A model generated the notes under the pieces. That model ran no database searches, was not told the origin of the DNA, and saw only the letters and a program-made list of their open reading frames with translations. A DNA stretch of 64,000 nucleotides from Chryseosolibacter indicum (GTDB lineage Bacteria; Bacteroidota; Bacteroidia; Cytophagales; Cyclobacteriaceae): contig NZ_JAHESD010000004.1 in the NCBI RefSeq assembly GCF_018598585.1, positions 62,001-126,000 of the forward strand, written 5' to 3'. Shown in pieces: positions 31,720-52,619 of the stretch. The position numbers and the translations under genes are program-made. Numbering within the stretch: the first letter of the stretch is position 1; each line of letters opens with the position of its first letter.

Positions 31720-32112
31720 TTATCTGTAAGTAAGTGTAACTACTTCACCTCTCTCAATTACACTTAGCTTTAATGTCTTATCTGTTATCTCAATAACGTC
31801 AAGTACTTCCTCATCAAACTTGCCTTTATTAAGAAATAACTTATTTCCTTCCACATACCACTCACCGTCAACATTCTTTTCAAAGAACTTCTCTTCATAT
31901 TGTTTAGTACTTGAGAAGTAGAAAGATGAGTTGTTATACAAGGTGTTAATAACATGACTGATGTCTCCATTTAAAGATTCGGCTCTGTAAAAAGCCCAGT
32001 CTTTATTTGTTAACGCTCTTTCTATTTTTGAGCTTTCGATCACCTCAGCCCTGAAACCACTAATGGCTACTGCCAGGATGCCGAGAAGAAGTGTGAGAGT
32101 ATAATTTTTCAT
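31720..32112 (-). CDS. secreted lipocalin-like protein, unknown function
   Basis: 130 aa with a Sec signal (about 1-22). Beta-rich sequence (KDWAFYRAESLNG, SSFYFSSTKQYEEKFF, GEWYVEGNKLFLNK, LKLSVIERGEVVTLTYR) resembles the small lipocalin-like proteins common in Bacteroidota. No cysteines and no catalytic motif. Confidence 0.6.
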   Translation of the reverse strand: MKNYTLTLLLGILAVAISGFRAEVIESSKIERALTNKDWAFYRAESLNGDISHVINTLYNNSSFYFSSTKQYEEKFFEKNVDGEWYVEGNKLFLNKGKFDEEVLDVIEITDKTLKLSVIERGEVVTLTYR

Positions 32113-32436
32113 GGGGTTTAATTTGATACCACTATTGCCATTTTAATGCCTCAATTAAAAATCAGTGCAATCGTTGTAAAAACGGCCGTTTCGCCATTAT
32201 TGAACAAAAAACCGTCTCAAATTGAAACTAGAAAACAGGGTAATTGTCCCATATTTGGAATAGAGGAATAAGTTAGGGGTTGTTTTCAGATTTAAGTTTT
32301 GCTACTTAAACGCTTGTTGTGGCCTTCGCCATCTCTTACTTTTTTTGTATCTTTAAGTAATTCATAGTGGCCCATATTTTCCCGGGTTTTAAATCATTTT
32401 ATTTATAAATTTCGTTTCAACACAACTCCCTGGGGA
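32113..32436. other. intergenic gap, left part
   Basis: Between the divergent genes at 31720 and 32748. It holds a 12-bp palindrome AAACGGCCGTTT at 32180-32191 upstream of the minus-strand gene and a CTCCCTGGGGAG dyad at 32426-32437 directly before the repeat arrays. No gene recognised. The remainder of the gap is the two repeat arrays. Confidence 0.5.
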
Positions 32437-32523
32437 GTGCAGAGAAAGTGCAAAGAGAGTGCAGAGGGTGTGGAGAATGTTTTAGAGGTGCCTTAGAGGA
32501 GCTTTAGAGAATACTTAGCAGAG
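32437..32523. repeat. degenerate tandem array, about 11-bp period
   Basis: About eight consecutive units of 11 bp (one of 10). The first units start GTGCAGAG or GTGCAAAG; later units share TTAGAG with varying flanks. The two halves drift from one consensus to the other. It lies immediately before the 7-bp array in a gap with no gene, so both look like products of local slippage or word duplication. Confidence 0.7.
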
Positions 32524-32551
32524 CCAAGCCCAAGTACGCTTAGCGCCTTTG

Positions 32552-32690
32552 CCCAATTCCTAGCTCCCAGCCCCTAATCCCCAATTCCCACTCTACAATG
32601 CCTAATACCAACCCCTAATGCCTAATGCCTGGTGCCTAATTCCCAATACCCGTTGCCTAACCCCCAATGCCTGATTTCTAATCCCTATTT
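32552..32690. repeat. degenerate tandem heptamer array (STRR-like)
   Basis: About 19 units of 7 bp, phase-constant except for one 6-bp unit at 32608-32613. The commonest word is CCTAATG; others differ by one to three bases (for example CCCAATT, CCTGGTG, CCCAATA). The phase survives even where bases differ, so units diverge by substitution more than by indel. The array ends 58 bp before the start of the unknown 188-aa gene. Family members are described in cyanobacteria; none is known to me in this phylum. Confidence 0.85.
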
Positions 32691-32747
32691 TCATTTTTGA
32701 CACTATTTGTCACTGGCATACCCTAGTTTTCCAGGAAAAAGAAAAAT

Positions 32748-33314
32748 ATGGCTATCATAACTCATAATTCCCTTACAAAAGGCGCCAGGGGTGCCTTCGG
32801 TAGTGTTATGTTCAGGCAGGTGCGCAATAAGACAATTATGTCAGCAAAGCCTTCTCCACCCGAAAAGCAAAGTGAAGGCCAGCGAAGAAATCGCGAGAAA
32901 TTTCGAAGCGCCACCATTTATGCTAAGCATGTTTTGCTAGACCCGCAGAAGAAGGCCTACTATCAGCATAAGGCCAGGAAGTTAAAATTGCCAAACGCAT
33001 ATACTGCAGCCATTACAGAGTATATGCGAAAAGGAGAGATTAAAGCAATAGCCGTAAACAAAAAGAATGGTAAGGTGCAAGACACCGTAAAGATTAATGC
33101 GTATAAGAAAGATTTTGCAGTTAGAAAGGTGAGGGTTGTTATTTACGGTGAGAATGGCTTACCTGTGTTTAAAGGCGAGGCAAACAAGAGCGACAAAACG
33201 GAATTTATACTTCATACCGGACATGATTTCTTGCTTCGTCATAACATGAAGATCCATGCATTTATTGATGATTGCGATATGGGTAGTACACCATTTGTTT
33301 ACACGGTTGAGTAA
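32748..33314 (+). CDS. protein of unknown function (basic, 188 aa)
   Basis: No signal peptide. Residues 1-95 are very basic, with AFGSVMFRQVRNKTIMSAKP, a Pro/Gln/Arg linker and helices ending KLKLPNAYTAAITEYM; this arrangement loosely recalls phage- or conjugation-associated small proteins such as DUF6266 but is not a clear match. Residues 105-188 are beta-rich (VRVVIYGENGLPVFKGEA, GHDFLLRHNMKIHAFIDD). Lies directly after the heptamer array and before an esterase gene. Function not assignable. Confidence 0.65.
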   Translation: MAIITHNSLTKGARGAFGSVMFRQVRNKTIMSAKPSPPEKQSEGQRRNREKFRSATIYAKHVLLDPQKKAYYQHKARKLKLPNAYTAAITEYMRKGEIKAIAVNKKNGKVQDTVKINAYKKDFAVRKVRVVIYGENGLPVFKGEANKSDKTEFILHTGHDFLLRHNMKIHAFIDDCDMGSTPFVYTVE

Positions 33315-52403: not shown

Positions 52404-52562
52404 GCATTGATCATTAGTCACTGGTCATCGGATTCACTTTGACTAGTTCACTTCTCTTGCAACTCAAATTCATCAAATCTTATCAGAGTCACTCGTCATC
52501 AGTCAACGGTCATTAGTCATTAGTAATGTACTCTCGACTATCTACTATTGACAATTGACTTT
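52404..52562. repeat. degenerate heptamer repeats in the nuoJ-nuoI gap
   Basis: In 7-bp phase from 52404 the gap reads as related words. The clearest run is 52488-52522, five successive units starting GTCA (including GTCATCA, GTCAACG and two GTCATTA); a second run, 52535-52562, has units such as CTACTAT and TGACAAT. Other units in between diverge. It resembles STRR words based on GGTCA and TGACAA. Confidence 0.75.
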
Positions 52563-52619
52563 TTTAAGCACGAAACTTAAAAAAGAACAATTATCATGAT
52601 CACAGGCGCCAGAAAATGA

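Follow-up and report, generated by a model that had tools for sequence, protein, structure and literature searches.

The 139-base array at 32552-32690 of the analysed window is a real tandem heptamer repeat and belongs to a class of repeats that fill intergenic gaps in Chryseosolibacter indicum, its relatives and several other phyla. The window is a stretch of 64,000 nucleotides in contig C128 of the 5.8 Mb draft genome of C. indicum (G000). The original prediction had described about 19 degenerate heptamers in a gene-free gap, with a single short unit. The unit table agreed: eight heptamers (32552-32607) were followed by the 6-base unit CCAACC (32608-32613) and eleven further heptamers (32614-32690).

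The heptamer array of the window and its gap

The features of the window considered here were as follows.

31720-32112, minus strand: divergent upstream gene, whose weak lipocalin-like match falls short of the Pfam cut-off.
32436-32480, no strand assigned: period-11 array (AGTGCAGAGAA) in the same gap (Tandem Repeats Finder at 32436-32466, and lag scan).
32481-32524, no strand assigned: second period-11 array (TTAGAGGAGCC; Tandem Repeats Finder, direct repeats).
32552-32690, plus strand: array of degenerate heptamers with the consensus CCYAATN, made of 19 full units and a single unit of 6 bases (lag-7 identity, Tandem Repeats Finder, unit table).
32697-32712, plus strand: 16-base dyad TTGACACTATTTGTCA, common to the promoter regions of a 41-copy gene family and starting 7 bases past the last base of the array.
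32748-33314, plus strand: downstream gene, one of about 41 dispersed paralogues that have no assignment in Pfam or NCBIfam.
52486-52564, no strand assigned: second period-7 stretch of the window, in which GTCATTAG units are followed by inverted ACTATTGAC units, making an inverted pair (lag-7 scan and direct reading).

The gap at 32113-32747 contained no gene-like ORF. The lag-7 identity of the array was 0.591, and none of 5000 dinucleotide shuffles reached this score (mean 0.292, standard deviation 0.041, maximum 0.462). Identity was also raised at lags 14, 21 and 28. Elsewhere in the window, beyond the gap of the array, the lag-7 identity of 139-base stretches did not exceed 0.485. Tandem Repeats Finder, the second check proposed originally, called period 7 with 13.1 copies (62% matches, score 49) and period 21 with a score of 74; detection was weak because the units differ. 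The array is compositionally skewed, as it would be if the period had arisen by chance in DNA rich in A and T or in pyrimidines. Given the shuffles and a genome-wide count of 96 matches to the unit pattern against 4 to its reverse, the probability of such a chance origin is negligible, and the earlier statement that the period is more than plain AT-richness was upheld.

Departures from the majority letter at unit positions 1 to 7 numbered 2, 1, 8, 3, 6, 3 and 13 (n = 19), an uneven distribution (p = 0.003). Position 7 was free, position 3 was C or T and the others were mostly conserved; positions 1, 2, 4 and 6 were well conserved and positions 3, 5 and 7 variable. This clustering of departures at positions 3, 5 and 7 is unlike even point decay. 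The gap folded worse than its shuffles (z +2.3), the array matched no RNA family, and the gap held no inverted heptamer arm or convergent partner.

The array ends 57 bases 5' of the start codon of the downstream gene, beyond the dyad. A role as a leader or translation element of that gene was rejected, since a conserved promoter-region dyad lies between the array and the gene and arrays in same-direction gaps show no clear preference for gene direction. Paralogues of the downstream gene numbered about 41 in C. indicum, 0 and 1 in the congeners G001 and G002, and about 20 in two other genera. The dyad TTGACA[CG]TATTTGTCA, or a sequence close to it (for example TTGACACAAGCTGTCA), lay 30-73 bases upstream of 21 of the 24 copies examined, and TTGACANTATTTGTCA sites (at most one mismatch) numbered 29 in C. 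indicum and 0-2 in five relatives. Judged from these shared sites, the dyad-bearing paralogues look like one regulon. The period-11 arrays go with the same family: the AGTGCAGAGAA word matches 11-mers upstream of other copies, and period-11 arrays preceded 16 of 23 copies compared with 6 of 74 control genes (p = 1e-8). The family is unrelated to the heptamer array. That the array might be part of a cassette carried by the family was rejected, as a period-7 run lay upstream of only 1 of the 23 other copies.

Heptamer arrays in C. indicum, its congeners and other phyla

The expectation that the unit would occur elsewhere in the genome proved correct. Three consecutive units of the pattern MCYANT-N, matched 96 times as noted above, formed about 24 separate arrays in C. 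indicum, and the main sub-words of the family were GCCYAAT and GACYATT. In an unbiased scan of 453 kb, periods 7 and 11 stood out in noncoding DNA, and period 11, the second of the two, involved many unrelated words. With genes defined as longest ORF calls, nearly all of the approximately 24 arrays lay in gaps and two overlapped an ORF call. All kinds of gap were represented (convergent, divergent and same-direction), even those within operons, such as nuoC-nuoD, argG-argC and ilvE-ilvD. By our count, the arrays in same-direction gaps ran with the genes in 7 cases and against them in 5.

Change in array length was seen on contig C120 (L245 3980-5430) of C. indicum, where a unit of about 220-310 bases occurs six times in tandem, each time containing a heptamer array; an assembly gap in this region leaves the number of large units uncertain. 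The 96-base right flanks of the copies were 94-97% identical and gapless, and the five closed arrays measured 39, 40, 43, 62 and 75 bases. Because the arrays differ in length while their flanks match, the number of heptamer units changes in place. Each large unit, read by eye, also has a short open frame (...FEYHVITPELIFGLARACADKVQREIMVRGPAGPGGEKTL).

In samples of 400-450 kb per genome, period-7 runs in noncoding DNA numbered 6 in 51 kb of C. indicum, 31 in 36 kb of G001 and 48 in 44 kb of G002, compared with 0.7, 0.3 and 0 in the corresponding Markov sequences. Period 7 dominated the intergenic DNA of both congeners, at roughly one array per kilobase, and periods that are not multiples of 7 gave far fewer runs. 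The words were diverse: AGCTTGC, GATTTAA and AATAGCC in G001, and GTCSACR, AGRAGYM, CGTAYYT, GTTRCCR and AAGTTTA in G002. In G040, which belongs to another family of the same order, period-7 arrays were few. Near-perfect arrays were observed in G001 (L317 5281-5495, about 28 units of AAATCTT) and at several loci of G056:C1 (ACTAATC, 14-20 units); these are probably young, and would be good places to measure change in unit number.

Orthologous gaps in the congeners were located with a chimeric query of the flanking proteins. The flanking genes were conserved across the three genomes and the gap sequence was not. The argG-argC gap carried GACYATT in C. indicum, AGCTRCA in G001 and GTTGCCA in G002, and the nuoC-nuoD array was long in G001, short in C. 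indicum and absent from G002. Since orthologous gaps keep their genes and not their array words, array replacement outpaces species divergence within the genus; neutral gap DNA would be equally unalignable at such a distance, so the gap comparison by itself is no proof of a special rate.

These data bear on whether the units are recognised by a sequence-specific DNA-binding protein with a part in organising the chromosome or in repressing adjacent genes. Such a protein would account for the conservation of unit positions 1, 2, 4 and 6 with variation at 3, 5 and 7 in the window array, and for the many dispersed copies. We consider it very unlikely, because the congeners run many unrelated words simultaneously, the words of orthologous gaps differ, and no fixed distance from array to gene was found among the approximately 24 arrays of C. 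indicum.

The word itself extends far beyond the genus. A 23-base run of the window word matched at least 118 stretches across many phyla, compared with about 0.06 expected by chance according to our arithmetic. Among the matches listed were Bacteroidota, Cyanobacteria, Planctomycetota, Clostridia, Verrucomicrobia, Acidobacteria, Proteobacteria and others, many of the genomes being metagenome-assembled. A period scan of contigs away from the word matches, which took only genomes selected for carrying the word, gave 68 period-7 runs in Bacteroidota (at most 11 for any other period below 14), 16 in Cyanobacteria (at most 3 for other periods) and 5 in Clostridia (0 for other periods). In an even draw across the phylum, three consecutive CCYAAT units were found in 36 of 395 genomes.

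Inverted pairing and polarity at gap ends

Arrays sharing a gap were compared by a composition-corrected similarity score, for which thresholds of 0.70, 0.75 and 0.80 were concordant. In G002, 15 of 22 neighbouring arrays in the same gap were inverted copies of one word and none were direct copies, compared with about 4% expected for each from unrelated gaps. The corresponding numbers in G001 were 6 inverted and 2 direct of 17. At other Bacteroidota loci, 24 of 94 pairs were inverted and 16 direct, and at Clostridia loci 6 of 7 were inverted against a background of about 20%, so that both sets tilt toward inverted pairing as in G002. The second period-7 stretch of the window, at 52486-52564, ends in a T run, and its inverted units could form a hairpin.

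Array orientation was also related to position in the gap. In side-of-gap tests, which include related arrays, 18 of 24 arrays of C. indicum had a C-rich strand that ran rightward at the right gap end and leftward at the left (p = 0.02), and in G002 word orientation tracked the side of the gap for 141 of 185 similar pairs (p = 4e-4). Orientation and gene strand were not clearly linked in G002 (p = 0.06 and 0.30). The purine content of the two ends of array gaps in G002 was 0.548 and 0.434 (p = 9e-6), compared with 0.514 and 0.495 in array-free gaps (p = 0.11). In G001 the purine difference between arrays was present and the word-orientation effect absent. The window array follows the expected polarity, its G-rich strand starting beside the 5' neighbour gene, with the partner absent. 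Replication-strand bias was rejected for the single-contig genome G040, in which matches, judged by eye, occurred on both strands along the whole chromosome.

The inverted pairs and their polarity at gene ends are what would be expected of a structural element, in which paired arrays form long hairpins or G-quadruplexes at gene boundaries and act in transcript ending, stability or insulation, the window array being a half-element. Several observations count against this reading. The window gap lacks an inverted heptamer arm and its folding is poorer than that of shuffles, orthologous genes manage without the array or with a different word, and polarity showed no clear dependence on gene direction in G002, the sole genome testable with power. 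Words with only GG runs are, moreover, poor formers of G-quadruplexes. Precedents point both ways: some cyanobacterial STRRs form hairpins within operons (PMC2670836) and Xanthomonas repeats form G-quadruplexes in vitro, and for the latter Rehm et al. (2015, PMC4692102) found no regulatory role or function. On balance, we regard a structural role as unlikely.

Arrays in separate gaps of G002 were related in sequence as well. Those of one word family shared unit order beyond shuffles (KS p = 1e-5), which points to copying between loci, and had shared starts such as AAGAGTCCAC. In an arm-register test, the untrimmed combined value (p = 1e-4) was biased by array edges, and after trimming there was only a trend for the arms. 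Shared starts, similar unit order and the small number of word families per genome would fit REPIN-like elements, that is, short palindromes with heptad arms copied between gaps by a transposase or gene conversion. The inner cores between paired arrays look unrelated and vary in length between 0 and about 200 bases, and no conserved core was seen in the inverted pairs of the congeners. Y1 transposase genes were few (4, 5 and 4), and their counts did not track array density, array-poor G040 (5) equalling the array-rich congeners. Copying within a genome, furthermore, cannot put one word in distant phyla. A dispersed element of this kind seems quite unlikely to us.

Relation to known heptamer repeats and origin of the arrays

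The class is known in outline. Rehm et al. (2015, PMC4692102) found GGGAATC heptamers to be abundant between the genes of Xanthomonas, where each genome has 70-75 convergent inverted pairs, and described related GGGGA(C/T)T heptamers in Nostoc; the G-rich strand lies near the gene on the 5' side in Xanthomonas, and the Nostoc repeats have a like preference. Thus inverted pairing was known from Xanthomonas, and polarity from Xanthomonas and Nostoc. The present arrays share with both a period of 7, heterogeneous units, occurrence on both strands, convergent inverted pairs, and length and sequence that vary between relatives; they too consist of tandem 7-base units, are dispersed and mainly intergenic, and show gap-end polarity (18 versus 6 in C. 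indicum, p = 0.02). They differ in that one G-rich word was followed per genome in Xanthomonas and Nostoc, whereas the present genus carries many words, most with runs of GG at most. An inverted partner is frequent but not universal among the repeats of that study; the window array has none, and partners are common in G002. As to runs of three or more G, from which a quadruplex could form, C occupies position 3 in only 8 of the 19 units of the window array and never in four units running.

The original prediction had likened the array to cyanobacterial STRRs. The likeness holds in kind, as both consist of tandem heptamers, intergenic and at many loci per genome, with related words. The word is not a cyanobacterial trait and recurs in other phyla. 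The window array belongs, besides, to another phylum and its units are more degenerate. The STRR words, which we take to be CCCCAGT and CCCCAAT, do not occur in tandem in the window array, where CCCCAAT, one step from the window unit, is present only singly.

The same prediction had supposed such arrays to be undescribed in this phylum, which was mistaken: heptamer arrays in Bacteroidetes were published in 2015, when TAACTGA direct repeats were reported from Beggiatoaceae, Cyanobacteria and five Bacteroidetes (MacGregor 2015, PMC4679880). Like the present arrays, those are heptamers in Bacteroidetes gaps and are missing from the orthologous gaps of close relatives. However, the TAACTGA unit is absent from the window array, and in Beggiatoaceae the repeats are mostly forward and a few bases from start codons, unlike the 57 bases and the 7 with and 5 against found here. 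Among long simple sequence repeats of 5-11 bases, heptanucleotides are the commonest in most genomes and polymerase slippage was proposed, according to Mrazek et al. (2007), as cited in PMC4679880 and PMC4692102. Relative to the open-licence literature, what is new is the breadth of words within one genus, the replacement of words in orthologous gaps, and the tandem copies of one locus with unequal array lengths and like flanks. Surveys of the Mrazek type reportedly tally repeats that are near-perfect, and would probably miss the window array because of its degeneracy.

We lean, by a modest amount, towards the view that the heptamer arrays form a satellite that is mostly neutral and is reshaped by slippage in 7-base steps, with a set of words spread or favoured within each genome. 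The window array is then most likely an old, degenerate member of a genome-wide intergenic heptanucleotide class. Arrays would arise and then change in place as 7-base units are gained or lost, probably through slippage in replication or repair with a favoured 7-base step; because such a step shifts the reading frame, they would be tolerated mainly between genes. Their wholesale replacement between congeneric species fits this picture. Many arrays stand as inverted pairs at both gap ends, with the purine-rich or G-rich strand starting at the gene boundary. The stock of words in each genome is limited and common to many loci, suggesting that copying between loci or a preference for words also acts.

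Plain slippage does not explain gap-end polarity and inverted pairing, or the recurrence of one word across phyla. Since polarity and mirrored pairing lie outside it, some probability stays with a structural function, or with a process of directional synthesis, beside the neutral satellite. As for the latter, a DNA process common to several phyla might write inverted heptamer arrays on both gap ends, the G-rich or purine-rich strand leading away from the gene boundary; a single enzyme, a slipping or 3'-end-extending polymerase, would set both the 7-base step and the polarity, and the words would be lineage-specific. This is speculative, and we give it only a small chance of being right.

Period-7 arrays are common enough in the congeners to shape many gaps, and genome annotation passes over them. 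The preference for seven bases and the mirrored pairs at gene ends are the question that remained after the 2015 studies, and genomes of one genus that carry different words in the same operon gaps are a natural experiment on both.
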